The notes under the pieces are model-generated. The model did not search any database. It was given only the letters and a program-made list of their open reading frames with translations, and was not told the DNA's origin. The translations under genes and the position numbers were made by a program. Positions 26,694 through 38,597 of a stretch of DNA of 38,774 bases are shown here, piece after piece. Each line of letters opens with the position of its first letter. Position 1 is the stretch's first letter. This DNA is from Jiella marina (GTDB lineage Bacteria > Pseudomonadota > Alphaproteobacteria > Rhizobiales > Rhizobiaceae), in the NCBI RefSeq assembly GCF_024359545.1, contig NZ_JAKQZG010000021.1, positions 1-38,774 of the forward strand. The letters are read 5' to 3'.

Positions 26694-28010
26694 TCAGTCG
26701 AACCGATCGAGAATGGCGCCCGGCGCAAGGCTGGTCGCATCCCGGTCCGCCAATTCATAGGCTGCGTGAACCCGCGCCGCGGCGCGCTCGAACGCCGCCT
26801 CGCTTCTGGCATGGACCATCGCAAGAGGCTCGCCTCTCACCATGGCCTGGCCCAGTCGCGCGAGCGCGGTCAGCCCCACGGCATGGTCGACCTCGTCCTC
26901 GGGCCGGGTCCGGCCGCCGCCGAGTTCAACGACCGCCAAGCCAAGCGCCCGCGCGTCGACGCCCGCCAGCGTTCCCGCCTCTTGCGACAGAACCGGCCGA
27001 ACGATCGGAGCGCGCGGCAGATGGTCCGCAAAACGCTCGACGAAATCCGCCGGCCCGCCCAGCGCCGCGACCATGCGGCCGAAGGTTTCCGCCGCCGCAC
27101 CCCCGTCCAGCGTCCGCTCCGCCGCCGCCCGGCCGGCTTCGCGATCCTCGGCCAGCCCGGCCAGCACCAGCATTTCCGCGGCAAGTGCCAGCGTCACCTC
27201 TTCGAGCCGCTTGTCCCGATGATCGCCGGTGAGAAACCGTACGGCGTTCTCGACCTCCACCGCGTTGCCGGCAGCCGAGGCCAACGCCTCGTCCATGCGG
27301 GTGAGAAGCGCCGTCGTCTTCATCCCGGCGCCGTTCGCCACGGCGACCAGACTGGTGGCCAATTCGCGGGCATCCTCCTCCGCCGCCATGAAGGCGCCGG
27401 AGCCGGTCTTCACGTCGAGGACGAGGGCCTGAAGCCCGGCCGCAAGCTTCTTCGACAGGATCGAGGCGACGATCAGCGGCACGGATTCCACCGTCGCCGT
27501 CACGTCGCGAATGCCGTAGAAGCGCCCGTCCGCCGGCGCCAGACGCCCGGTCTGGCCGATGATCGCACAGCCGACGTCGCGCACCGTCCGGTGAAACGTC
27601 GCATTGTCGGGTTTGACCGTGTAGCCGGGGATCGATTCCAGCTTGTCCAGCGTGCCGCCGGTATGGCCAAGCCCGCGGCCGGAAATCATCGGCACGGCCG
27701 CGCCACAGGCCGCCACGATCGGCGCCAGCATGAGCGAGACATTGTCGCCGATACCGCCCGTCGAATGCTTGTCGACCACCGGCCGGTCGAGATCCGACCA
27801 GTCCAGCGTGTCGCCGGAATCGCGCATCGCTTCAGTGAGCGCCACGGTCTCATCCTGCGACATGCCGCGAAAGATCACCGCCATGGCGAAAGCCGCGATC
27901 TGGGCATCGGTGACGCGGCCGTTCTCGAAGCCAGCGATGAAATCCTGAAGCGCGTCAGGCGGGAGCGGCTTGCCGTCGCGTTTGAGGGCAATGAGTTCCT
28001 GCGGGAGCAT
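26694..28010 (-). CDS. deoA: thymidine phosphorylase
   Basis: Phosphorolyses thymidine (and deoxyuridine) to the base and 2-deoxyribose-1-phosphate. The 438-aa protein has the expected length and motifs: LIALKRDGKPL at the N-terminus, the phosphate/ribose site KHSTGGIGDNVSLML, the ISGRGLGHTGGTLDKLE signature, and the K(T)GSGAF region. It is the last gene of the nucleoside operon and lies 243 bp after deoC, with a palindromic element in the gap. ATG 28010 has only a weak Shine-Dalgarno (GGCACCTG), so its translation may depend on leader structure. Confidence 0.96.
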   Translation of the reverse strand: MLPQELIALKRDGKPLPPDALQDFIAGFENGRVTDAQIAAFAMAVIFRGMSQDETVALTEAMRDSGDTLDWSDLDRPVVDKHSTGGIGDNVSLMLAPIVAACGAAVPMISGRGLGHTGGTLDKLESIPGYTVKPDNATFHRTVRDVGCAIIGQTGRLAPADGRFYGIRDVTATVESVPLIVASILSKKLAAGLQALVLDVKTGSGAFMAAEEDARELATSLVAVANGAGMKTTALLTRMDEALASAAGNAVEVENAVRFLTGDHRDKRLEEVTLALAAEMLVLAGLAEDREAGRAAAERTLDGGAAAETFGRMVAALGGPADFVERFADHLPRAPIVRPVLSQEAGTLAGVDARALGLAVVELGGGRTRPEDEVDHAVGLTALARLGQAMVRGEPLAMVHARSEAAFERAAARVHAAYELADRDATSLAPGAILDRFD

Positions 28011-28057: not shown

Positions 28058-28236
28058 CACCCCCCTCTGGGCTGCCGCCCATCTCCCCCGCAAGGGGGGA
28101 GATTGATCTCGCTCGGCTCTCGTGAACAAGCTGAAAAGCGGAGAAACTGCCCCCACGCCGCTCGGTAGGAAGGTCCTACCGAAGCCGCCAATCTCCCCCC
28201 TTGCGGGGGAGATGCCCGGCAGGGCAGAGGGGGGTG
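28058..28236. repeat. composite inverted-repeat element A (two palindromic units)
   Basis: Two ~46-bp units in inverted orientation, at 28058-28104 and 28190-28236, with the CCCCCCTCT ends outward. Each unit has a hairpin ATCTCCCCC/GGGGGAGAT and a second short hairpin around GGCA (28069-28080 on the opposite strand and 28214-28225). The 85-bp spacer contains another perfect hairpin CGGTAGGA-AGG-TCCTACCG at 28163-28181. The element starts 18 nt after the deoC stop and ends about 48 nt before the deoA start. It resembles the intergenic mosaic or REP-like elements known from Rhizobiales. Confidence 0.88.
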
Positions 28237-28253
28237 ACCCAGGCACCACCATC

Positions 28254-29021
28254 TCAATATCCGCTTTTGCCACCCGCGCGGTCCCGGCCCTTGGCCACCG
28301 CCAACAGGTCATCGAGCACGCCGGACGCTCCCAAGCGGAAGCGCTCGGGCGTAGGATAGTCCTTGCCGCAGATCGTCTCGGCGAGCTGCATGTAGCCGTC
28401 GGCATCCTCGAAGGTCTTGATGCCGCCGGCCGGCTTGAAGCCGACCGTGGCGCCTTCCTTGGCGATCTCTTCGAGAAGCATGCGGGCGGAGGCGGGTGTC
28501 GCGTTCACCTCGACCTTGCCGGTCGAGGTCTTGAGGAAATCGGCCCCGCCCGCCAGCGCGGTTCGCGCCGCGATCCGGGTCGCAGCCTCGTCATAGAGCC
28601 GGCCGGTCTCGAGAATGGTCTTCAGCCGCGCCATGCCGCAGCTCGCCTTGACGGTGCGCACCTGTGCCTCCACGAAGCCGGGATCTCCGGCGAGCCGCTC
28701 ATAGGCGATCACCATGTCGATCTCGTCGGCGCCGGCCGCCAGTGCGTCATGGACTTCGCCGAGCGTCGCGTCGATATCGTCGCCGCCATGGGGAAAGTTC
28801 ACCACCGTCGCGACCTTCACATGGGGCGACAGTTCGCGACGTGCGAAGGCGACGAAACGCGGCCAGATGCAGATCGCGGCCACCTGCCCCACCGGCGTCT
28901 CGGCCCGCTGACACAGGGTCGCGATATCGGCCTCGCCGCAGTCCTCGTTCAGATTGGTGAGGTCGAGGCGCTTGATCAGTTCGACCGCGCGCATCGCTTG
29001 CGGCCCGTGAACGTCAGCCAT
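28254..29021 (-). CDS. deoC: deoxyribose-phosphate aldolase
   Basis: Class I aldolase that splits 2-deoxyribose-5-phosphate into acetaldehyde and glyceraldehyde-3-phosphate. The 255-aa TIM barrel has the Schiff-base lysine in FLKTSTGKVEVNATP (about residues 160-175) and VATVVNFPHGG earlier. ATG 29021 is chosen; it overlaps the 3' end of the purine nucleoside phosphorylase gene by 8 nt. The frame upstream to 29075 is inside that gene. A phosphopentomutase, needed to convert the 1-phosphate to the 5-phosphate, is not in the window. Confidence 0.95.
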   Translation of the reverse strand: MADVHGPQAMRAVELIKRLDLTNLNEDCGEADIATLCQRAETPVGQVAAICIWPRFVAFARRELSPHVKVATVVNFPHGGDDIDATLGEVHDALAAGADEIDMVIAYERLAGDPGFVEAQVRTVKASCGMARLKTILETGRLYDEAATRIAARTALAGGADFLKTSTGKVEVNATPASARMLLEEIAKEGATVGFKPAGGIKTFEDADGYMQLAETICGKDYPTPERFRLGASGVLDDLLAVAKGRDRAGGKSGY

Positions 29022-29820
29022 CGAATACGCCTTTCTCGAGCATCGCCCGAATGATCCGTCCAAGCCGGGCGCCACCCTTGGGCGCCATCTCCTTGGTCTC
29101 GGTATGGGAAAGCTCGCCGCCGGTCATGCCGGCTCCCAGATTGGTGATGACGGAGGCCGCGACCACCTTCAGCCCGAAAAACCGAGCGAGGATCGTTTCC
29201 GGCACGGTCGACATACCGACCGCATCCGCGCCGAGAATGCGGGCCATGCGGATTTCCGCCGGCGTCTCGAAGGAGGGACCGGAAAACCACATATAGACCC
29301 CTTGCGCGAGCGGTTCGCCCAGCCCTTCGGCGGTTCCGACCATTGCCGACCGCAGACCTGCGTCATAGGCCGCCGTCATGCCGACGAAGCGCTGGTCGGT
29401 GTCCTCGCCGATCAGCGGGTTGAGGCCGGAAAAGGCGATGTGATCCGTCATCATCATCACCGAGCCGGGGGCAAGATCCGCCCGCACGGCGCCGGCGGAA
29501 TTGGTGAGAAGGAGATGGCCAATCCCGAGCGCGTGGATCGCTTCAATCACCGGACGCATGGCCGCCGGATCGCCAGTCTCGTAGTAATGAACTCGGCCGG
29601 AGATCACCATCACCTCGCGCCCGCCGAGCCTCCCGGCGATCACCTCGCCGGCATGGCCGGTCACCCGGCTCGCGGGGAAGTTCGGCACTTCCGCGAACGG
29701 GATGCGCACGGCATCCTCCATGTCGGCGACGAGGCCACCGAGGCCGGAGCCGAGAACCATCGCGACCTTCGGCTTGCGCCCGCCGAGCCGGTCCCTCAGG
29801 AAATCCGCGGCGGCGCTCAT
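29014..29820 (-). CDS. punA: purine-nucleoside phosphorylase (trimeric class I type)
   Basis: Phosphorolyses inosine, guanosine and their deoxy forms to base plus (deoxy)ribose-1-phosphate. The 268-aa protein has the class I motifs: VLGSGLGGL, TGHAGEVIAGRLGG, RVHYYETGD, LTNSAGAVR, GPSFETPAEIRM with GMSTVPE, and ITNLGAG carrying the Asn that favours 6-oxopurines. ATG 29820 overlaps the cdd stop by 4 nt (ATGA), a sign of coupling. The symbol is a family name only. Confidence 0.93.
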   Translation of the reverse strand: MSAAADFLRDRLGGRKPKVAMVLGSGLGGLVADMEDAVRIPFAEVPNFPASRVTGHAGEVIAGRLGGREVMVISGRVHYYETGDPAAMRPVIEAIHALGIGHLLLTNSAGAVRADLAPGSVMMMTDHIAFSGLNPLIGEDTDQRFVGMTAAYDAGLRSAMVGTAEGLGEPLAQGVYMWFSGPSFETPAEIRMARILGADAVGMSTVPETILARFFGLKVVAASVITNLGAGMTGGELSHTETKEMAPKGGARLGRIIRAMLEKGVFDG

Positions 29821-30224
29821 TCCTCGACTCCGGCAAGGGAATCGGTGGCGAAGGAGTGGGGCAGGAGCTCGCCCATGGTCACGGTCTCGACCACGCCGGT
29901 CCTGGCATCGCAGAGATGTACCCGCGTCTGAGGCGTCGCGAATTCGGCGATCCGCTGCCGGCAGCCGCCGCAAGGCGAACAGGCGCGAAGCTTTTCGGCC
30001 ACCACCGCGATTTCGGCGATCCGGCCGCCGCCATCCATCACCATGTGGCCGATCGCCGTCGTCTCGGCGCACCAGCCCTCGGGAAAACTCACCACCTCGA
30101 CATTGCAGCCCGAAAAGATGCGCCCGTCCGTCGTGCGGATCGCCGCCCCGACGGGAAACTTCGAATAGGGCGCGTGCGCCTTGCGCATCGCCGATTTCGC
30201 CTTGGCAAACAGATCCTCGGCCAT
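29817..30224 (-). CDS. cdd: cytidine deaminase
   Basis: Zinc enzyme converting (deoxy)cytidine to (deoxy)uridine. The 135-aa length is that of the homotetrameric form. Motifs: YSKFPVGAAI, GCNVEV, WCAETTAIGH (zinc Cys and catalytic Glu of the CAE motif) and CSPCGGCRQRIAEF (the two other zinc cysteines). It starts 34 bp after the second permease gene and overlaps the phosphorylase gene by 4 nt. Confidence 0.96.
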   Translation of the reverse strand: MAEDLFAKAKSAMRKAHAPYSKFPVGAAIRTTDGRIFSGCNVEVVSFPEGWCAETTAIGHMVMDGGGRIAEIAVVAEKLRACSPCGGCRQRIAEFATPQTRVHLCDARTGVVETVTMGELLPHSFATDSLAGVEE

Positions 30225-30258
30225 GGGTCAGCTCTTGGCACTGGGCATCGAACGGGTC

Positions 30259-31227
30259 CTAACGCTCCTTCACATAGGGCACGCCGCCCGCCTTGGGCGG
30301 GGTGGCCTTGCCGACGAAGCCGGCGAGAAGCACCACCGTCAGAACATAGGGCAGAGCCTGGACGAACTGCACCGAAATCTCGCCGACGACCGGCAGTTCG
30401 ACACCCTGAATGCGGATCGAGACCGCGTCGAGAAAGCCGAAGAGCAGACAGGCGAACATCACCGGCACCGGCTTCCAGTTGGCGAAGATGAGGGCGGCAA
30501 GGGCGATGTAGCCCTTGCCAGCGGTCATGTCGCGGGTGAAGCCGGCGGCCTGGGCGACCGCCAGATAGGTGCCGGCGAATCCGGTCAGAATTCCGCAGAT
30601 GATGACGGCGCGATAGCGCAGCCAGGGCACGGAAATGCCTGCCGTATCGACGGCCGCCGGGTTTTCGCCGACGGCTCTGAGCCGCAGGCCGAAACGGGTG
30701 CGGAACAGCACCCACCATGTCAATGGCACCATCAGGAAGGCGACATAGACGAGGATGGTCTGGCCGGAGATCACATTGGCATAGATCGGCCCGATGACGG
30801 GGATCGATTCCGCCGCGTCCGCGCCGGGCAGGTGGATCGGCGTGAAACGCCCCCCGCCGAACAGGCTCGGCGTGCGCCCGCCCTGCGAAAACCAGCTCTG
30901 GCCGAGGATGATCGTCAGGCCCGCCGCAATGAAGTTGATCGCAACGCCCGAGACGATCTGATTGCCGCGATAGGTGATCGAGGCGAGGCCGTGAACGAGG
31001 GAAAACGCCGTCGCGGCGAGAATGCCGACGAACAGGCCAAGAAAGGCCGAGCCCCAGACCGCCGCGGCCGAAGCGGAGGCGAAGGCCGCGATCAGCATCT
31101 TGCCTTCCAGCGAGATGTCGAAAATGCCCGAGCGCTCGGAATAAAGCCCGGCGAGCGCGGCAAAGAGCAGCGGTGTGGACAGGCGGATCGTCGATTCGAC
31201 CAGGTTGAGGGTGAAGGCGAGATCCAT
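30259..31227 (-). CDS. nucleoside ABC transporter permease (NupQ-like)
   Basis: A 322-aa inner-membrane permease with about nine hydrophobic segments. It has the family sequence GLYSERSGIFDISLEGKMLIAAFAS near residue 28 and a later GENPAAVDTAGISV, typical of the BMP-dependent purine/pyrimidine nucleoside transporters (YufQ/NupQ type). Its ATG overlaps the stop of the upstream permease gene (TGATG). It should form a heterodimeric channel with that permease and be driven by the ATPase at 32812. Confidence 0.93.
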   Translation of the reverse strand: MDLAFTLNLVESTIRLSTPLLFAALAGLYSERSGIFDISLEGKMLIAAFASASAAAVWGSAFLGLFVGILAATAFSLVHGLASITYRGNQIVSGVAINFIAAGLTIILGQSWFSQGGRTPSLFGGGRFTPIHLPGADAAESIPVIGPIYANVISGQTILVYVAFLMVPLTWWVLFRTRFGLRLRAVGENPAAVDTAGISVPWLRYRAVIICGILTGFAGTYLAVAQAAGFTRDMTAGKGYIALAALIFANWKPVPVMFACLLFGFLDAVSIRIQGVELPVVGEISVQFVQALPYVLTVVLLAGFVGKATPPKAGGVPYVKER

Positions 31228-32369
31228 CAGCGCGCCTCCTCGACATTCTCACCCGCCGGCTGCTCGGTGCGGAAGCGCACCCATTGATAGGCTGCGCCGA
31301 CGCCCGGCCGGAACATGTTTTCCAGCGCCCCGGCGAAGAGAATCACGAGGCCCTGGATGATGACGATCATGTCGCGGGAGATCGATGGCATGTCGAAGGC
31401 GAGTTCCGCCCCGCCCTGATAGAGCATGCCGAAGAGGATCGCGGCCGGGATGATGCCGGCGGGATGGCCCCGCCCCATCAGCGCGACGGCGATCCCGACG
31501 AAGCCGGCGCCTTGCGGAAAGTCGATCACCAGCCGGTACTGGTCGCCCATCACCGGGTTCAGCGCCATCATGCCGGCGAGACCGCCCGAGATCAGCATGG
31601 TGACGACGATCAGCCGCGTCTCCGACATGCCGGCATAGCGCGCCGCGCGGGGCGAAAAGCCGAGCGTGCGGATTTCATAGCCGAGCTTGGTCCGCCAGAT
31701 CAGCACCCAGACGAGGAAGGCTGCGACCAGCGCGACGAAGATCGAGACGTTGAGCGGCGCACCACCGAGATTGGCACCGAAGAGTTCGAACAGGCCTCTG
31801 AGCTTCGGCAATTGCGCGCCGGCATCGAAGGTGCGGGTCTCGGGCGCCATGGTGCCGGCCGGCTTCAACACGTTCACCAGGAGATAGACCATCAGCGCAG
31901 CGGCGATGAAGTTGAACATGATCGTGGTGATCACGATGTGGCTGCCGCGTTTGGCCTGGAGATAGCCGGGGATCAGCGCCCAGAGTGCGCCGCAGGCGAA
32001 GGACAGGACGATGGCCAGCGGCATGTTCAGCCACCAGGGCAGAACGACGCCCAGAGACAGCGCCACCGTGGCGACACCCAGTCCGCCGACATAGGCCTGC
32101 CCCTCCCCGCCGATATTGAACAGCCCGCCATGAAAGGCGACGGCCACGGCGAGGCCGGTGAAGATGAAGTTCGTCGCGTAATAGAGGGTGAAGCCGACCC
32201 CTTCCGCGTAGCCGAAGGCCCCGCGCAGCATGAGCGCCGCCGCTTCCACCGGACTTTCGCCGACGGCCAGCACCACGAGACCCGCCACCGCGAAGGCAAC
32301 GACGAGATTGATCAGCGGAATGAGACCGAAATCAATCCAGGGCGGAAGCTTCGCATAGGGCCGGCTCAT
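31227..32369 (-). CDS. nucleoside ABC transporter permease (NupP-like)
   Basis: A 380-aa permease with about ten hydrophobic segments. It shows the family features FHGGLFNIGGEGQAYVGGLG near residue 90 and the later GFSPRAARYAGM. It starts at ATG 32369, 8 bp after the VOC gene ends; the frame upstream to 32453 lies inside that gene. Its stop overlaps the start of the second permease gene by one base. Together they form the translocation path of the nucleoside importer. Confidence 0.93.
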   Translation of the reverse strand: MSRPYAKLPPWIDFGLIPLINLVVAFAVAGLVVLAVGESPVEAAALMLRGAFGYAEGVGFTLYYATNFIFTGLAVAVAFHGGLFNIGGEGQAYVGGLGVATVALSLGVVLPWWLNMPLAIVLSFACGALWALIPGYLQAKRGSHIVITTIMFNFIAAALMVYLLVNVLKPAGTMAPETRTFDAGAQLPKLRGLFELFGANLGGAPLNVSIFVALVAAFLVWVLIWRTKLGYEIRTLGFSPRAARYAGMSETRLIVVTMLISGGLAGMMALNPVMGDQYRLVIDFPQGAGFVGIAVALMGRGHPAGIIPAAILFGMLYQGGAELAFDMPSISRDMIVIIQGLVILFAGALENMFRPGVGAAYQWVRFRTEQPAGENVEEAR

Positions 32370-32377
32370 CGAAAGCG

Positions 32378-32815
32378 TCAGTCTCCGAAAGGTGGCAGGA
32401 CGAGATGGCCGCGCTCGTCGAGCCGCCAGAAGGGATTGTGCGCGACCTCCCAAAGGTGATCGTCGAGGTCGCGGAAATTACCGGAATAGCCGCCCCAAAA
32501 GACCTTCGACGGCGGCTTGACTGCCCGCGCTCCGGCCTCGACCGCCCTGGCGTAGAACGCGTCGACCTCTTCCGGGGAGGTAACATTGATCGCGAGCGCC
32601 ATGGAGCCCGACCCCGTCGGCAAATCGCCCTCGCCGCCATCCTCGATCATGTCGTCCCGGTTCCAGAGCGAAAGCACGATCCCCTCGCCGAGCATGAAAG
32701 CGGTCCGCTCGACGCTGTCGGACGACTTCACCCACCCCAGCGCCTCGTAGAAGGCGACGGCGCGAGCGACGTCGCCGACGCCCAGGGTGACGAGGGAGAC
32801 GCGGGCAGGAGTCAT
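32378..32815 (-). CDS. VOC family protein (glyoxalase/dioxygenase fold)
   Basis: A 145-aa VOC-superfamily protein with two beta-alpha-beta-beta-beta modules: VSLVTLGVGDVARAVAFYEALGW at the start and ALAINVTSPEEVDAFYARAVEAGA in the second half, ending in FRDLDDHLWEVAHNPFW. The first strand lacks the His usually used as metal ligand, while the Glu of LWEV is kept, so the metal site may be incomplete. It overlaps the ATPase stop by 4 nt (ATGA) and precedes the permease by 8 bp, so it is co-translated within the transporter genes, which is unusual. The function is not known; a link to nucleoside use is inference from position only. Confidence 0.87.
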   Translation of the reverse strand: MTPARVSLVTLGVGDVARAVAFYEALGWVKSSDSVERTAFMLGEGIVLSLWNRDDMIEDGGEGDLPTGSGSMALAINVTSPEEVDAFYARAVEAGARAVKPPSKVFWGGYSGNFRDLDDHLWEVAHNPFWRLDERGHLVLPPFGD

Positions 32816-34347
32816 TCCGCCGCCTCCGGCGTTTCCTCGACGCCCGCCATCAGCAGGCCAAGGTCGCCTTCGGTCGCGTCCGGCCCGCGTTCGCCGACGA
32901 TACGGCCGGCGAACATGACGAGGATGCGGTCCGACAGGGCGCGGATTTCGTCGAGTTCGACGGAGACGAGCAGGATTGCCTTGCCGGCGTCGCGCATCTC
33001 GACGATGCGCTTGTGGATGAACTCGATGGCGCCGACATCGACACCGCGTGTCGGCTGGCCGATCAGGAGCACGTCCGGATCGCGCTCCATCTCGCGGGCG
33101 AGCACGATCTTCTGCTGGTTGCCACCGGAAAAGTTCGAGGTCTTCAGCCGGCAATCCGGCGGGCGGATGTCGTAGGCCTCGATCTTCTCGCGGGCATCGC
33201 GGCGCATGGCGTTCTGATCCAGAAGGACGCCCTTCCGGAAGCGCTTGTCGTCCTGATAGCCGAGAACCGAATTCTCGTTTTCCTCGAAGGGCAGAACGAG
33301 GCCCATGTGATGCCGGTCCTCGGGCACATGGGCGCAGCCGATCCGCCGGATTTCCGCCGGGTCGGTCTCGCGCGTCGGATCGATCTCACGGCCGCAAATG
33401 GAGATCTGGCCGGCCTCGGCGCGCCGGATGCCCGACAACGCTTCCAGGAGTTCGCTCTGGCCGTTGCCCGCGACGCCCGCAATGCCGACGATCTCGCCGG
33501 CCCGCACCGAGAAGGAGACGTCGTCGACCATGGTGACGCCGCGACCGTCCTTGACGGTCAGCCCCTTCACGTCGAGAAGGACGTTGCTTGGCCGCGCCTC
33601 GCCCTTGTCCACCGTCAGGAGCACGCGCCGGCCGACCATGAGCTCGGCGAGTTCGGCGACGGACGTCTCGCTGGTCTTGCGCGTCGCGACCATCTCGCCC
33701 TGGCGCATTACCGAGACATTGTCGGTGATCGCCATGATCTCGCGCAGCTTGTGGGTGATCAGGATGATCGTCTTGCCCTCGGCGCGAAGCTGCTGCAGCA
33801 CCTCGAACAGATGATCGGCCTCGGACGGCGTCAGAACGCCGGTCGGCTCGTCAAGGATCAGGATGTCGGCGCCGCGATAGAGGGCCTTAAGGATTTCCAC
33901 CCGCTGCTGGCGGCCGACGGCCAGATCCTCGATCACCGCGTCCGGGTCGACGTCGAGGCCGTGGTCCTCTTCCAGCCTCTTGAGTTCGGCGCGCACCTTT
34001 CCGATGCCCGCGCGCAGCAATGGCGACTGTTCCGCCCCCAGCATGACGTTCTCGACCACGGTGAAGTTGTGGACGAGCATGAAATGCTGATGCACCATGC
34101 CGATGCCGGCCGCGATCGCAGCGTTCGGATCGGTGATCTCGACCTTCTTGCCGCCGACCCGGATCTCGCCGCTGTCGGCCTGATAGAAGCCGTAGATGAT
34201 CGACATCAGGGTGGATTTTCCGGCGCCGTTTTCGCCGATGATGCCGTGGATGGTGCCGCGCTCGACGGTGAGGTCGATCGCCTTGTTGGCGCGTACGGCG
34301 CCGAAGCGCTTGTCTATACCGATCAGTTCGATCGCAGGTTCGGCCAT
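32812..34347 (-). CDS. nucleoside ABC transporter ATP-binding protein (duplicated ATPase)
   Basis: A 511-aa protein with two ABC domains in tandem, as in simple-sugar and nucleoside importers of the RbsA/NupO type. The first has Walker A GENGAGKST (about 37-45), a diverged signature AVGRQQRVEIL and Walker B ILILDEPT. The second has the degenerate Walker A GVAGNGQSEL, an intact FSGGNQQKIVLAREM and a modified Walker B LLIGQPTRG, which is normal for this family. HQHFMLVHNFTVVENVMLG is characteristic of nucleoside importers. Start ATG 34347; the upstream frame overlaps the divergent thioesterase gene. It heads the operon, and no binding-protein gene precedes it. Confidence 0.94.
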   Translation of the reverse strand: MAEPAIELIGIDKRFGAVRANKAIDLTVERGTIHGIIGENGAGKSTLMSIIYGFYQADSGEIRVGGKKVEITDPNAAIAAGIGMVHQHFMLVHNFTVVENVMLGAEQSPLLRAGIGKVRAELKRLEEDHGLDVDPDAVIEDLAVGRQQRVEILKALYRGADILILDEPTGVLTPSEADHLFEVLQQLRAEGKTIILITHKLREIMAITDNVSVMRQGEMVATRKTSETSVAELAELMVGRRVLLTVDKGEARPSNVLLDVKGLTVKDGRGVTMVDDVSFSVRAGEIVGIAGVAGNGQSELLEALSGIRRAEAGQISICGREIDPTRETDPAEIRRIGCAHVPEDRHHMGLVLPFEENENSVLGYQDDKRFRKGVLLDQNAMRRDAREKIEAYDIRPPDCRLKTSNFSGGNQQKIVLAREMERDPDVLLIGQPTRGVDVGAIEFIHKRIVEMRDAGKAILLVSVELDEIRALSDRILVMFAGRIVGERGPDATEGDLGLLMAGVEETPEAAE

Positions 34348-34447
34348 GAAGGTGTCAGGACTTTTCTCTTGGTTTCCGCCACAGTAATCAGCGACATGGA
34401 CGAAGGCCAGTGACAATCGCGATCGAGGCGGCGAGGATGAGAACTCC
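34348..34447. promoter_or_regulatory. divergent promoter region, nucleoside operon / thioesterase
   Basis: A 100-bp gap between divergent genes must hold the promoter of the whole salvage operon. I could not fix a -35/-10 pair or an operator by eye. Confidence 0.4.
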
Positions 34448-34906
34448 GTGACGTCAGACGAGACCCCATCGACGGCGCGGCCGGCGCCGGCCACGCGCTC
34501 GGCCTTTCGCCTGTTCCGCCAACTGACGACGCGCTGGTCGGACAACGACGTCTACGGCCACATGAACAATGTGGTCCATTATTCGCTGTTCGACACGGCC
34601 GTGAACGGCTGGCTGATCGAAGAAGGCCTGCTCGATCCGGCAAGGAGCGAGACGATCGGTCTCGTGGTCGAGACCGGATGCCGCTATCATGGGGAACTCA
34701 TGTTTCCCGAGCCGGTCACGGCCGGGATCGCAGTCGGGCGCCTTGGCCGGTCGTCGGTGCGCTATGAGATCGCGTTGTTCGGGGGCGACAAGGAGACGGC
34801 GGCGGCCGAGGGCTTCTTCATCCATGTCTATGTGGACCGGAACACAAGGCGGCCGGTGCCGATCAGCGATGCGATGCGGGCCAAATTCCAGGAGTTAGCG
34901 CGATGA
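34448..34906 (+). CDS. acyl-CoA thioesterase (4HBT, YbgC-like)
   Basis: A 152-aa single hotdog-fold protein. The 4-hydroxybenzoyl-CoA thioesterase motif is RWSDNDVYGHMNNVVHYSLFD (about residues 28-48), with the catalytic aspartate in the SDNDVYGH part. Small cytoplasmic members hydrolyse short acyl-CoA thioesters; the substrate is not known here. The start is GTG 34448, with GAGGATGAG upstream. It overlaps slyX by 4 nt (ATGA) and is divergent from the nucleoside operon. Confidence 0.92.
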   Translation: MTSDETPSTARPAPATRSAFRLFRQLTTRWSDNDVYGHMNNVVHYSLFDTAVNGWLIEEGLLDPARSETIGLVVETGCRYHGELMFPEPVTAGIAVGRLGRSSVRYEIALFGGDKETAAAEGFFIHVYVDRNTRRPVPISDAMRAKFQELAR

Positions 34907-35124
34907 GCAAAACCAGTGACGGCGAGGCGAGCCGGATCGAAGATCTCGAGGTGATGGTCTCCCACCAGAACCGGACGATCGAGGAGCTGTCGGAAGAACT
35001 CGCCCGGGCCTTCCGGATGATCGACCGGCTCCAGCATTTGACCCAGGCGGTCAGCGAGCGGCTCGGCGCGGTGGAGGATGTGACGCTTCCCAAACCCGAA
35101 GCGACCAAGCCGCCGCATTATTGA
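34903..35124 (+). CDS. slyX: SlyX family protein
   Basis: A 73-aa coiled-coil protein with the SlyX pattern: IEDLEVMVSHQNRTIEELSEEL, a second heptad stretch through QHLTQAVSERLG, and the conserved C-terminal PPHY. The function is unknown. It starts within the thioesterase stop codon (ATGA), so it is translationally coupled, and ends 10 bp from the convergent nucleoside hydrolase gene. Confidence 0.92.
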   Translation: MSKTSDGEASRIEDLEVMVSHQNRTIEELSEELARAFRMIDRLQHLTQAVSERLGAVEDVTLPKPEATKPPHY

Positions 35125-35134
35125 AGAACAGGCC

Positions 35135-36076
35135 TCACGGCAGGCGGCCGATCCGCTCGGTCAGCAGCGCGTAGAACCGGTCGGAATCGCCTGAGCGCAC
35201 CCAGAAGGCATTCTTCGGCCGGTCGGTGACACCCCAATAGTCGGCGACCGTCATGCCACGGCAGAGCACGCTCTCGGTCTCGATCTCCACATTGATCTCG
35301 CGCCCCTGAAAGATTTCCGGCTGCAGCATGAAGGCGGTCACGCAAGGATCGTGCAGCGGCGCGCCCTCCCAGTCGTATTTCTCGACGTCGAAGCGTTCGG
35401 AGAAGGAGAGCATCGCCGCCACCGCTTTTCCGCTGTTGTTGCCGAGCGAGCGGAACGCCTCGATCCGCTCCTTCGTCGAGCGCATCTTGTGGGTGACGTC
35501 GAGCGGCAGCACGGTGAGCTTCACGCCGCTCCCGAAGACGATCGCGGCGGCGTCCGGATCGACATAGATGTTGAATTCCGCCGTCGGCGTGATGTTGCCG
35601 CCCTCGAAATAGCCCCCGCCCATCAGGACGAGGCCGGCGAGCCGTTCGGCAATGTCCGGCGCCTTGGCGAGCGCCAGGGCGACATTGGTGAGCGGCCCGA
35701 GAGCGAGGAGGGTCACCGACCCCGCGGGGCGGGAACGCACCGTCTCGATGAGGAAGTCGACGCCGTGGCCCTTGGCCGGCAGCGTCTGCGGCTCCGGCAG
35801 ATCCGGACCATCGAGCCCCGTCTCGCCATGAACATGCTCGGCGGTGACGAGCGAGCGACGCAGCGGCCGGTCGGAGCCCCGATAGACCGGCACGTCGGTC
35901 CGCCCGGCGAGTTCGACGAGCCTGAGCGCGTTCCTGGTCGTGAGCGAAAGCGGAATATTGCCCGCGACCGTGACGATGCCGAGGACGTCGAGTTCCGGCG
36001 AAGCGAGCGCGGTCAGGATCGCGACCGCATCATCCTGACCGGGATCGGTGTCGAAAATGACGGCGCGCTTGTCCAT
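35135..36076 (-). CDS. inosine-uridine preferring nucleoside hydrolase family protein
   Basis: A 313-aa calcium-dependent hydrolase that cleaves ribonucleosides to ribose and base. The N-terminal metal motif DTDPGQDD is at residues 9-16. The conserved NIPLSLTTRNALRLVEL and VYRGSDRPL follow, then LALGPLTNVALAL, MGGGYFEGGNITPTAEFNIYVDPDAA and a C-terminal HDPCVTAF. All are typical of the family. There is no signal peptide. It complements the phosphorolytic pathway of the adjacent operon. It lies 273 bp after the Gfo/Idh/MocA gene, separated by repeat element B. Confidence 0.95.
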   Translation of the reverse strand: MDKRAVIFDTDPGQDDAVAILTALASPELDVLGIVTVAGNIPLSLTTRNALRLVELAGRTDVPVYRGSDRPLRRSLVTAEHVHGETGLDGPDLPEPQTLPAKGHGVDFLIETVRSRPAGSVTLLALGPLTNVALALAKAPDIAERLAGLVLMGGGYFEGGNITPTAEFNIYVDPDAAAIVFGSGVKLTVLPLDVTHKMRSTKERIEAFRSLGNNSGKAVAAMLSFSERFDVEKYDWEGAPLHDPCVTAFMLQPEIFQGREINVEIETESVLCRGMTVADYWGVTDRPKNAFWVRSGDSDRFYALLTERIGRLP

Positions 36077-36349
36077 GATTCACTTCCCACTGACGCCGCC
36101 CACCTGCGCGGCTTTCGACGGGGGTCTATCGCGGTTTCGACTGACGGGGAAGATGAGCGGAGTGACGCGAACGCGGTGGCGCCATCGGTGAAGCTGCGAT
36201 CTCCCCCTTGCGGGGGAGATGGGTGGCAACCCAGAGGGGGGTGCAGCGCCAACTTCGACAAGTTCTTCGCCGGGGTACCCCCCTCTGCCTGCCGGCATCT
36301 CCCCCGCAAGGGGGGGGGGGGAGAAAAGCCATTAGCGGATGTATGCGCT
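36077..36349 (-). other. intergenic region carrying repeat element B
   Basis: A 273-bp gap. It holds element B at 36199-36322 next to the stop of the Gfo/Idh/MocA gene; the remaining 122 bp before the nucleoside hydrolase start should include that gene's promoter. GGGAAG a few bases before ATG 36076 is the likely Shine-Dalgarno. No gene is seen. Confidence 0.45.
36199..36322. repeat. composite inverted-repeat element B (two palindromic units)
   Basis: Two units of the same family as element A, at 36199-36243 and 36276-36322, again inverted but with the CCCCCCTCT ends facing inward and a 32-bp spacer. The first has hairpins ATCTCCCCC-TTGC-GGGGGAGAT and GGGT-GGCA-ACCC (36221-36232). The second has GCC-GGCA-GGC on the opposite strand (36287-36296), and its outer arm ends in a run of 12 G (36310-36321). 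It begins 28 nt after the stop of the Gfo/Idh/MocA gene. Confidence 0.88.
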
Positions 36350-37525
36350 CTAATTCCCGAGCGTCACCCAGGCGCCATCCGCCTTGGAGGACTTCACGCA
36401 GGCTTCGATGAAGGCGAGGCCGTCGATACCGTCCTCGATCGTCGGGAGAGCGACATCGGCAGGCGGCGCCTCGCCAGCGTCCGCCGCCCGGATCAGCGCG
36501 GCGGCTTCGATGTAAATGGTGGCGAAGCCTTCGAGATAACCTTCCGGATGGCCGGCCGGGATACGGCTCACGGCAACGGCCGCGTCATTGGCTCCGGCTC
36601 CGCCGCGCGTCAGCAGGCGCTTCGGCTCACCGAGCGGGGTGTACCAGAGCTTGTTCGGCTCCTCCTGGGCCCATTCGAGCCCGCCCTTGTCACCATAGAC
36701 GCGCAAGGTCAGGCCGTTCTCGTTGCCGACGGCCACCTGGCTCGCCCAGAGCGAGCCCTTCGCCCCGCCTGCAAAGCGCAGGAGCATGGACGCGTTGTCG
36801 TCGAGCTGGCGGCCGGGCACGAAGCTCGACAGGTCGGCGGCGAGCTTCTCGACCTTCAGCCCCGTGACGTAGCAGGCGAGATTGTGGGCGTGGGTGCCGA
36901 TATCGCCGATCGCACCACCCGCGCCGGCTTTCGCCGGATCGACCCGCCAGCCGGCCTGTTTGGAGCCCGTGTCCTCGGCGCGGTCGGCCAGCCAGTCCTG
37001 GACATATTCCGCGACCACCAGCCGGATCGTGCCGAGATCGCCATTGGCGACCATCGACCGGGCCTGCCGGATCATCGGGTAGCCGGTGTAATTGTGGGTG
37101 AGCACGAACACCTTGCCCGCCGCCCTGGCGATCTCGCCGAGTTGCCGAGCCTCGCCCAGCGTCGTCGTCATCGGCTTGTCGCAGATGACGTGAAAGCCCG
37201 CTTCGAGGAAGGTCTTCGCGACGGGAAAATGCATGTGGTTCGGCGTGACGATCGCCACCGCCTCGATACCGTCCGGCCGGCCTTTTTCCTTCTCCGCCAT
37301 CTCCTCATAGGAGCCGTAGCTGCGCTCCGGATCGAGGCCAATCTCGGCGGCCGAGGCCCTCGCCTTTTCCGGCGTCGAGGAGAGCGCGCCAGCGACCAGT
37401 GTGAACTTGTCGTCGATGCGGCTTGCGATCCGGTGCACCCCGCCGATAAAGGCGCCCTGCCCGCCGCCCACCATGCCGAGGCGGATGCGGCCCGAATGTC
37501 TGTCGTCGCGTCCTTCGATGGTCAT
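36350..37525 (-). CDS. Gfo/Idh/MocA family oxidoreductase
   Basis: A 391-aa NAD(P)-dependent sugar or inositol dehydrogenase-like protein. The Rossmann motif GMVGGGQGAFIGGVH lies at residues 17-31; the family EKP-type position is seen as VICDKPMTTTLGEARQL near 130, and HNYTGYPM follows. The C-terminal beta-sheet domain carries the substrate site, including GGAIGDIGTHAHNLACY. The start is ATG 37525, 13 bp after the preceding TIM-barrel gene. Substrate not assignable; the pairing suggests oxidation or keto-sugar handling in a carbohydrate pathway. Confidence 0.93.
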   Translation of the reverse strand: MTIEGRDDRHSGRIRLGMVGGGQGAFIGGVHRIASRIDDKFTLVAGALSSTPEKARASAAEIGLDPERSYGSYEEMAEKEKGRPDGIEAVAIVTPNHMHFPVAKTFLEAGFHVICDKPMTTTLGEARQLGEIARAAGKVFVLTHNYTGYPMIRQARSMVANGDLGTIRLVVAEYVQDWLADRAEDTGSKQAGWRVDPAKAGAGGAIGDIGTHAHNLACYVTGLKVEKLAADLSSFVPGRQLDDNASMLLRFAGGAKGSLWASQVAVGNENGLTLRVYGDKGGLEWAQEEPNKLWYTPLGEPKRLLTRGGAGANDAAVAVSRIPAGHPEGYLEGFATIYIEAAALIRAADAGEAPPADVALPTIEDGIDGLAFIEACVKSSKADGAWVTLGN

Positions 37526-37538
37526 GTTCCGCCTCCCC

Positions 37539-38597
37539 TCAGCGCTCGATGCCGAGCATGCGCTTGTTCGCCGCCTCGTCCGTGCCACCGGAGGCGAAAT
37601 CGTCGAACGCCTTTTCGGTCACGGTGATGATGTGGCTGGCGATGAAGGGCGCGCCTTCGGCCGCGCCCTGCTCGGCGTCCTTGATGGCGCATTCCCATTC
37701 GAGGACGGCCCAGGAATCATAGTCGTATTCGGCGAGCTTGGCGAAGATCGCGGCGAAATCCACCTGTCCATCACCCAGTGACCGGAACCGCCCGGCGCGC
37801 TTCAGCCAGGGCTGGTAGCCCGAATAGACGCCCTGCCGGCCGGTCGGATTGAATTCGGCGTCCTTGACGTGAAAGGCGCAGATCCTCTCGTGATAGATGT
37901 CGATGAACTCGACGTAATCGAGCATCTGCAGGGCGAAGTGGGAGGGATCGTAATTGATCTTGCAGCGCGGATGGTTGCCGCAGGCTTCGAGAAACATCTC
38001 GTAGGTCGCGCCGTCGAAGACGTCTTCGCCCGGATGGATCTCGTAACCCACATCGCAGCCCGCCTCGTCGAAGGCGTCGAGGATCGGCACCCAGCGCTTC
38101 GCCAGTTCCTCGAAGGCCGTGTCGATCAGGCCGGCCGGGCGCTGCGGCCAAGGGTAGAGATAGGGCCAGGCGAGCGCGCCGGGAAAGGTGACATGGCTCT
38201 TGAAGCCGAAATGGGCCGATGCCTTCGCCGCCATCTTCACCTGATCGACCGCCCATTCCTGCCGGGCCTTCGGATTGCCGCGCACTTCCGGCGCCGCGAA
38301 ACCATCGAAGGCCTCGTCGAAGGCGGGATGGATGGCGACGAGCTGGCCCTGGAGATGGGTCGACAGATCGGTGATCTCGACGCCGGCCTCGCGGCAGATG
38401 CCGGTGACCTCGTCGCAATAGGTCCTGGATTCGGCAGCCTTCTTCAGGTCAAAAAGACGCGCGTCCCAAGTGGGGATCTGGATGCCCTTGTAGCCATGGC
38501 CCGCGGCCCATTCGGCGATCGTCTTCAGATCGTTGAACGGCGCCTCATCGCCGGCGAACTGCGCGAGGAAGATCCCCGGCCCCTTCATCGTCTTCAT
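37539..38597 (-). CDS. sugar phosphate isomerase/epimerase family protein (TIM barrel)
   Basis: A 352-aa xylose-isomerase-like TIM barrel. Likely metal ligands are visible in order: GYEIHPGE, INYDPSHFAL, CAFHVKDAEF and VLEWEC, the Glu-Asp-His-Glu set of this family. Such proteins epimerise or isomerise keto-sugars or inososes, often with a Gfo/Idh/MocA partner, which here follows 13 bp downstream. ATG 38597 is preceded by GGGAGGACAGG, a strong Shine-Dalgarno; a second ATG at 38588 is possible. Confidence 0.92.
   Translation of the reverse strand: MKTMKGPGIFLAQFAGDEAPFNDLKTIAEWAAGHGYKGIQIPTWDARLFDLKKAAESRTYCDEVTGICREAGVEITDLSTHLQGQLVAIHPAFDEAFDGFAAPEVRGNPKARQEWAVDQVKMAAKASAHFGFKSHVTFPGALAWPYLYPWPQRPAGLIDTAFEELAKRWVPILDAFDEAGCDVGYEIHPGEDVFDGATYEMFLEACGNHPRCKINYDPSHFALQMLDYVEFIDIYHERICAFHVKDAEFNPTGRQGVYSGYQPWLKRAGRFRSLGDGQVDFAAIFAKLAEYDYDSWAVLEWECAIKDAEQGAAEGAPFIASHIITVTEKAFDDFASGGTDEAANKRMLGIER

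Follow-up and report, generated by a model that had tools for sequence, protein, structure and literature searches.

A palindromic repeat of Rhizobiaceae with a covarying inner hairpin and a core that has turned in place: a candidate for rewriting by template switching

A contig of Jiella marina (NZ_JAKQZG010000021.1, 38,774 nucleotides, here called the window) carries four two-hairpin palindromic units arranged as two inverted dimers, element A with its tails outward (28059-28235) and element B with its tails inward (36197-36327). The element is of the known repetitive extragenic palindromic (REP) and Rhizobium-specific intergenic mosaic element (RIME) kind. We document herein its copy number, its dimeric form, its intergenic place, orthologous sites that are filled in some strains and empty in others, the covariation of its inner stem, and the inversion of its core at one locus. 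Our tentative interpretation, held at a little under an even chance for identity and mechanism taken jointly, is that these units belong to a non-coding, REP/RIME-like family of interspersed DNA palindromes in Rhizobiaceae, mostly in the form of inverted two-hairpin dimers, which is rewritten by template switching.

Three parts make up each unit: the pyrimidine tail ACCCCCCTCT, an inner hairpin of small size, and an outer hairpin with the form ATCTCCCCC-loop-GGGGGAGAT. The whole element measures about 115-180 bp. In the window the parts are as follows; bit scores are those of the covariance model described below.

28059..28105, plus strand: element A unit 1, with tail ACCCCCCTCT at 28059-28068 and inner hairpin GGGC-TGCC-GCCC at 28069-28080 (75.4 bits)
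28081-28103, plus strand: outer hairpin of element A unit 1, ATCTCCCCC-GCAAG-GGGGGAGAT
28104..28190, no strand: core of element A, the 87 nt that separate its outer hairpins
28189..28235, minus strand: element A unit 2, with outer hairpin at 28191-28213, inner hairpin at 28214-28225 and tail at 28226-28235 (77.5 bits)
36197..36242, minus strand: element B unit 1, with outer hairpin at 36199-36220 (4-nt loop), inner hairpin at 36221-36232 and tail at 36233-36242 (65.9 bits)
36243..36276, no strand: spacer of element B, separating tails that point at each other (tail-in dimer)
36277..36327, plus strand: element B unit 2, with tail at 36277-36286, inner hairpin GCC-TGCC-GGC at 36287-36296 and outer hairpin from 36297 (49.5 bits)

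Read on the unit strand, the inner hairpins of element A unit 2 and element B unit 1 are GCCC-TGCC-GGGC and GGGT-TGCC-ACCC. Element A is a tail-out inverted dimer, and the 52-nt arms of its two units are 90% complementary. An earlier note on this DNA had described four palindromic units with these inner hairpins, and all four are present as described. It had also given them a common hairpin and tail; in the fourth, element B unit 2, the 3' outer arm is not GGGGGAGAT but a lengthened run of G and then AGAA (in place of AGAT, the last T being lost). The long G run itself (36306-36321) probably arose by slippage.

The strict pattern CCCCCTCT-N4..16-ATCTCCCCC has 43 matches in the 5.08-Mb draft genome of J. 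marina, versus one for the reversed pattern used as control. A covariance model made from 28 units (cut-off E <=0.01) raised the number to at least 61, with 150 of 5103 candidates scored; this collection of genome copies had been proposed in the earlier note, and the arms of their inner hairpins do covary. At least one strict match is found in 62 of 121 sampled genomes of the family, with up to 283 copies in a single genome. Element A matches 175 plasmid records, most commonly of Rhizobium (69) and Sinorhizobium (66). No gene lies under the match in any of the 32 annotated records among the 40 listed, as far as the incomplete gene tables of PLSDB go. The unit is also present on a pSymB of S. 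meliloti, between convergent genes in the copy fetched. Thus, as inverted dimers of short palindromes in many intergenic copies, the elements agree with the REPIN type. Abundant repeats of type CCCCCTCTCCCTAACCCTCCCCC or CCCCCTCCCTAACCCTCCCCC in three other genomes of the class (G165, G179, G391) lack the inner hairpin and form a different repeat family.

The 43 strict matches were chosen blind to the inner part, and 40 of them close perfectly, down to a loop of 3-4 nt, versus a mean of 1.6 (maximum 7) for letter shuffles and 26.2 (maximum 33) when right arms are re-dealt among copies. Of 18 further copies found by the model only, counted by eye, 11 close perfectly, two contain one G-T pair, four have one broken pair, and one is a different long palindrome. 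Among other genomes, 133 of 135 inner hairpins close, compared with 64.1 (maximum 76) for re-dealt arms; this set was left after removing 121 of 256 units that belonged to the same class as the query used to fetch them, and in the full set 254 of 256 close. The earlier claim that changes on one arm are matched on the other is therefore borne out, at frequencies well above those of re-dealt arms. A 28-row alignment of 12-nt inner parts, in which rows from other genomes were picked by class, points the same way: three of four inner pairs vary on both sides, with 30 such cells versus 8.1 in shuffled alignments, and a shift of the partner by one column weakens the signal. Of five measures, two (double-change pairs and further pair types) did not exceed the shuffles. 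A covarying stem, as looked for in structured RNA, was found for the inner stem only.

The loop, which the earlier note regarded as fixed (GGCA, or TGCC on the unit strand), varies. TGCC predominates, and the genome of J. marina also has TCCC and, on longer stems, TTC, TAC, TCC and CTC, while TGTC and TACC occur in other genomes. Altogether, 14 distinct classes of inner hairpin were found among the 43 strict copies.

The outer hairpin and tail behave differently. Because tail and 5' outer arm are prescribed by the strict pattern, constancy there is partly built in; for that reason a relaxed search was made, which allowed up to two mismatches per part and required the inner part to run from G to C. 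Of the 316 units obtained, 300 have the exact tail, 296 the exact 5' outer arm and 278 the exact 3' outer arm. Changes in the outer stem were one-sided in 59 cases (41 broken pairs and 18 G-T pairs) and two-sided with pairing kept in three, one of which sits in a different repeat. With three compensated changes versus 59 one-sided ones, variation that keeps pairing concerns mainly the inner hairpin; since the tail and outer stem are nearly constant, they may be read as sequence. The tail and outer hairpin are conserved mainly in sequence, and the inner hairpin mainly in pairing. The earlier statement that the signature is not that of a protein-binding sequence was accordingly too strong.

The two units of a dimer seldom share an inner hairpin. 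The same one was found in both units of 13 of 103 tail-out and none of 28 tail-in dimers, where random re-pairing would give 22.2 (standard deviation 3.8) and 5.0 (1.9), respectively, in a sample of non-independent dimers enriched for the class used to fetch loci. Since the partners usually have different self-complementary inner hairpins, what stays paired is the local hairpin and not a long palindrome, and the latter was dropped as the conserved object. Kinship between dimers was ignored in a search for target-site duplications in 121 of them, which gave no consistent direct repeat; the best was one of 4 bp at the tail edge (10 dimers versus 4.1 re-dealt, maximum 9), and in 98 dimers the bases next to the C tract at the two ends are complementary to each other (64 re-dealt, maximum 77).

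Orthologous sites are either filled or empty, and the earlier suggestion of a REP-like element is supported for this interspersed repeat. Element A lies between deoC and deoA, a site readable in nine of ten genomes of the genus (all except G125): units are present in J. marina, G127, G020, G126 and G122, and missing in G128, G124, G121 and G123. Between hutH and hutG of Rhizobium, 12 of 18 records fetched contain an element with a full core and one (SU303) an internally deleted element, while BLR175, T24, RCAM1365, Norway and NLR16a are empty. The 61-nt hut core has a single match in each of 38 plasmid records of Rhizobium; a further match, in Natrinema, is likely due to chance, and WSM1689 fell below the reach of this search. 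At least one match to it is present in 37 of 148 genomes of the genus of G543, by inference Rhizobium. Of the loci with a hut-like core outside hut, 19 were inspected, most of them full elements and several evidently the same site.

At the hut site, the cores of WSM1689, Vaf10 and N621 align to that of R. etli Mim1 as reverse complements, with scores of 34.5, 36.0 and 30.0 compared with forward scores of at most 1.5 and a shuffle maximum of 8; seven other cores score 31 to 59 forward, and Mim1 scores 61 with itself. The core of TAL182, outside the Mim1 scoring set, was found to be reverse by comparison of core distances. The closest pair of a reverse and a forward core has 5 differences over 61 positions. 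A tree was built from 600 coding bases of the flanks in 29 rows (26 different), comprising 15 forward, 5 reverse and 9 unlabelled rows; among the last, six are empty or short and three can be read from their cores as two reverse and one forward. Its well-supported branches force at least four changes of orientation, and shuffled labels need 4.6, so that core orientation hardly follows the flanks.

Whether the units turned together with the core can be judged from a loop marker, the allele CCCCACCTGTGG as opposed to CCCCCCTTGTGG; the two forms differ at two bases, and one of them is self-complementary. With the core as reference, 20 of 24 records carry the marker 3' of it alone, three carry it 5' of it alone, and one (L283) has it at both ends; a narrower marker pattern gave 19 and 3 and missed L283. 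The three records with a 5' marker are WSM1689, Vaf10 and G717 (whose flanks are those of Vaf10), and all are hut sites with a reversed core. Insertion of a whole element backward would have kept the marker 3' of the core, and hence in these records the core turned between its own units. Reversed re-insertion of the whole element at hut was considered and set aside for these three, the marker being undecidable in the others. The exchange lay between marker and core, within an inverted arm of about 9-11 bp. Thus, at hutH-hutG the core has flipped in place between unmoved units in three records, two of them with identical flanks: a spacer inverted between short inverted arms with its outer markers unmoved. 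No description of such an inversion in a repeat of this type was found in searches of open-licence papers, few of which were aimed at it directly.

At the deo site, cores of other genomes of the genus occur in either orientation, and those of G127 and G126 are reverse-related (a score of 33, compared with no more than 22 for other elements). The core in the window shows only a weak match to them, 13.5 versus 12.5 with other elements, and no inversion is claimed for element A.

We infer that template switching is the mechanism behind both the matching of arms and the flipping of the core. The element would become single-stranded at the replication fork, where its hairpins could fold, and the polymerase might then switch template between hairpin arms. 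One such switch would rewrite one inner-hairpin arm with its partner as template, yielding compensatory pairs; another could flip the core between short inverted arms. Effects on host mRNA would be possible by-products. The attraction of template switching is that it would explain inner-stem covariation and core inversion together. Excerpts of PMC8604942 attribute the homogenisation of arms and the inversion of spacers to it, and in excerpts of PMC8794818 it is proposed as a source of compensatory hairpin changes. Template switching gives the compensatory pattern without selection, and therefore compensatory changes do not by themselves establish that a hairpin or an RNA is under selection. 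In that respect the earlier note, which saw here the signature of a structure kept as a hairpin, was right about the covarying inner stem and wrong to treat it as unique to such a structure.

Several points weigh against template switching. Unpaired intermediates of the inner hairpin are present in 394 genomes, GCCC/GGAC in 37 copies and GTCC/GGGC in 22, which is what stepwise change or recombination would leave. No loop inverted from TGCC to GGCA was seen among the units listed in the inner-hairpin comparisons. The authors of PMC8794818 themselves call the evidence for stem maintenance circumstantial and find compensatory changes with loop inversion extremely rare. The inverted spacers in PMC8604942 are short, with 2-5 bp changed and arms over 9 bp, compared with a hut core of 61 nt; the arms studied there are of at least 7 bp, compared with inner stems of 3-4 bp here. 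Selection against long inversions in their coding data is noted by the same authors. Recombination by RecA may be another route to core inversion. Five of six reverse hut cores have a common AGCTG end, and distances between cores are smaller within an orientation (9.6 and 10.0) than between orientations (12.8), so that a single inversion spread by recombination among strains may explain the tree. Finally, the marker in both units of L283 indicates that it can be copied from unit to unit. The low rate of change of the tail and outer stem is a further matter for which template switching does not account; young copies or protein recognition could.

The alternative that fares best, possible if rather doubtful in our estimate, is gene conversion among a few classes of unit, by which ready-made hairpins would be spread with no compensatory mutation inside a unit. 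The recurrence of a few discrete classes (14 among the 43 copies) is as expected from conversion, and crossovers within the loop would account for the hybrids GCCC/GGAC and GTCC/GGGC. The L283 marker in both units is also consistent with it, as is one dimer of J. marina that has the same loop of 21 nt in both units. The shared loop could be the result of copying, while related loops in other units of the genome allow for repeated insertion. The right unit of N621 was compared with near relatives for a change of both arms in one event, a result that conversion would give as well. Against conversion, the classes must first arise, and conversion alone does not flip a core while its units stay put. 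Loops of outer hairpins enlarged by a palindrome of type CCCTTCGACAGGCTCAGGAGGG were observed in L018 (C12:390584-390741 of the J. marina genome), L155 and L021, and one tail-in dimer has an identical one in each of its units.

A selfish element of the REPIN kind, mobilised by a single-strand transposase acting in trans that knows the inner hairpin by its shape and the tail and outer stem by their sequence, seems unlikely to us. It would account for a tail and outer stem that vary little beside an inner stem that varies with pairing kept, for similar cores at different places in genomes of Rhizobium, and for orthologous sites both empty and filled. The difficulty lies in the transposase. The earlier note had advised looking for a REP-associated tyrosine transposase (RAYT), and none tied to the repeat was found in a search with Y1_Tnp, other transposase families being outside that search. 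A 104-residue piece of the intact Y1 gene of J. marina is of the IS200 type by NCBIfam (95.5 bits, cut-off 55) and remains below the cut-off of the RAYT model (32.2 bits, cut-off 80). Y1_Tnp is found in 15 of 121 genomes of the family, seven of which have repeats, while repeats are found in 62, and the two show no association at 1, 10 or 20 copies. A Y1 gene is present in five of ten genomes with at least 40 copies and in 10 of the other 111 (Fisher p 0.003), at a threshold chosen post hoc and with two of the five from one genus. Twelve Y1 regions were examined of 29 matched places: a unit was found in only one, about 4 kb away, and none held a dedicated RAYT flanked by the repeat. Moreover, no GTAG-type tag is seen at the foot of the hairpin in the unit alignment. 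A RAYT was rejected as the driver, since Y1 genes do not track the repeats and, in the 12 regions examined, have no flanking units. One IS200-type transposase gene (L158:3491-3886) appeared, by eye, to lie between frames resembling pieces of a P-type ATPase.

Least probable, and in our view improbable, is a function at the RNA level, in which hairpins transcribed between operon genes would protect or separate segments of mRNA and the stems would be maintained by selection on the transcript. In its favour are sites between genes that run in the same direction and belong to one pathway (deoC and deoA in the window, hutH and hutG in Rhizobium), the pronounced folding of element A, with an RNA z of -12.5, and transcriptional activity of REP elements in S. 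meliloti (mentioned in an excerpt of PMC2873474, which cites the RIME paper). Against it, other strains and species lack an element at these sites, the fetched copy from S. meliloti sits between convergent genes, and the element has no Rfam family at gathering score, which also removes a known RNA family as its identity. On the unit strand, moreover, intermediates of the G-T type (22) do not outnumber those of the A-C type (37; p 0.067), a comparison made weak by inverted pairs that present both strands; strand bias of mismatched intermediates was dropped as a lead.

RIMEs, reportedly described by Osteras in 1995, are said to be about 108 bp long with two large palindromes. The present element resembles them in host group, intergenic place, palindromic build and similar length, a comparison made by description only. 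From the unit on pSymB, it is likely to be a relative or a member of RIME. RIMEs appear as annotated intergenic repeats of S. meliloti in portions of PMC2573895 and PMC2245857. According to excerpts of PMC3733652, REPs tagged GTAG or CGTC form dimers of opposite orientation with a preference for heterodimers, and the alphaproteobacterial CGTC class has no dedicated transposase, with stems of 8-9 bp that start with A-T pairs and loops of 4-5. The units described here share with the CGTC class the opposite orientation, the preferred heterodimers and, as far as the Y1 search goes, the lack of a dedicated transposase, and the outer hairpin has such a stem and loop (mostly of 5 nt), with the last pair lost in 8 of 28 rows. 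Unlike those REPs, the unit has neither a GTAG tag nor a consistent CGTC tag or CCA tail (no fixed CGTC, TGTC or CCTC tag and no fixed CCA tail in the unit alignments, the class being compared by description), and it has in addition a second, covarying hairpin and a pyrimidine tail. With REPINs and their RAYTs it shares inverted pairs of short palindromes scattered between genes, but no RAYT is linked to the repeats in the Y1 search. Quasipalindrome mutation by template switching, as far as excerpts of PMC8604942 and PMC8794818 describe it, likewise makes arms alike and inverts the spacer in place; the published spacers are of a few bases within genes or rRNA, whereas here the substrate would be a repeat family whose core is of at least 61 nt.

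The broader interest of the element is in what covariation can prove. Selected structures are by custom proved by it. In the present family, which is large and natural, covariation is joined by inversion in place, the companion mark of template switching, and where both occur together the usual inference may fail. It is conceivable, though we would not expect it, that a mobile palindromic family is being rewritten by replication, that template switching keeps its inner arms matched regardless of sequence and flips its core in place inside operons, that many bacterial loci are thus natural recorders of switching at the fork, and that part of the covariation used to call RNAs is mutational. The hut and deo loci offer concrete places to measure inversion and the effect of an inverting repeat on operon expression.

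The neighbours of the two elements in the window are the following genes.

28254..29075, minus strand: deoC, deoxyribose-phosphate aldolase, upstream of element A (TIGR00126, 185.4 bits, cut-off 117.3)
26694..28010, minus strand: deoA, thymidine phosphorylase, downstream of element A on the strand of deoC (TIGR02643, 663.2 bits, cut-off 570.7)
36350..37588, minus strand: Gfo/Idh/MocA-family oxidoreductase, upstream neighbour of element B
35135..36076, minus strand: gene of the inosine-uridine nucleoside hydrolase family, downstream neighbour of element B

Two further observations concern the architecture of the units. The tail CCCCCTCT (e.g. 28061-28068) and TCTCCCCC of the outer arm (e.g. 28082-28089) are exact mirror repeats around the inner hairpin, and it was a weaker thought that, judging by the letters, they could pair with GGGGGAGA as the third strand of an intramolecular triplex. 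Mirrored CCCCCTCC/CCTCCCCC repeats were found in G191, G265 and G406, a result left uncontrolled, since a mirrored pattern serves as its own control. A related repeat in L125 (CCCCCACC) lacks this symmetry. The triplex idea was abandoned, as tail and arm variants at hand, compared by eye, do not covary. In addition, at the hut site of five Rhizobium loci (L256, L257, L266, L267 and L290), a palindromic insertion beginning with CCGGGGTCGAGCCGCGGGTCTCGACCCG replaces part of the left outer hairpin.

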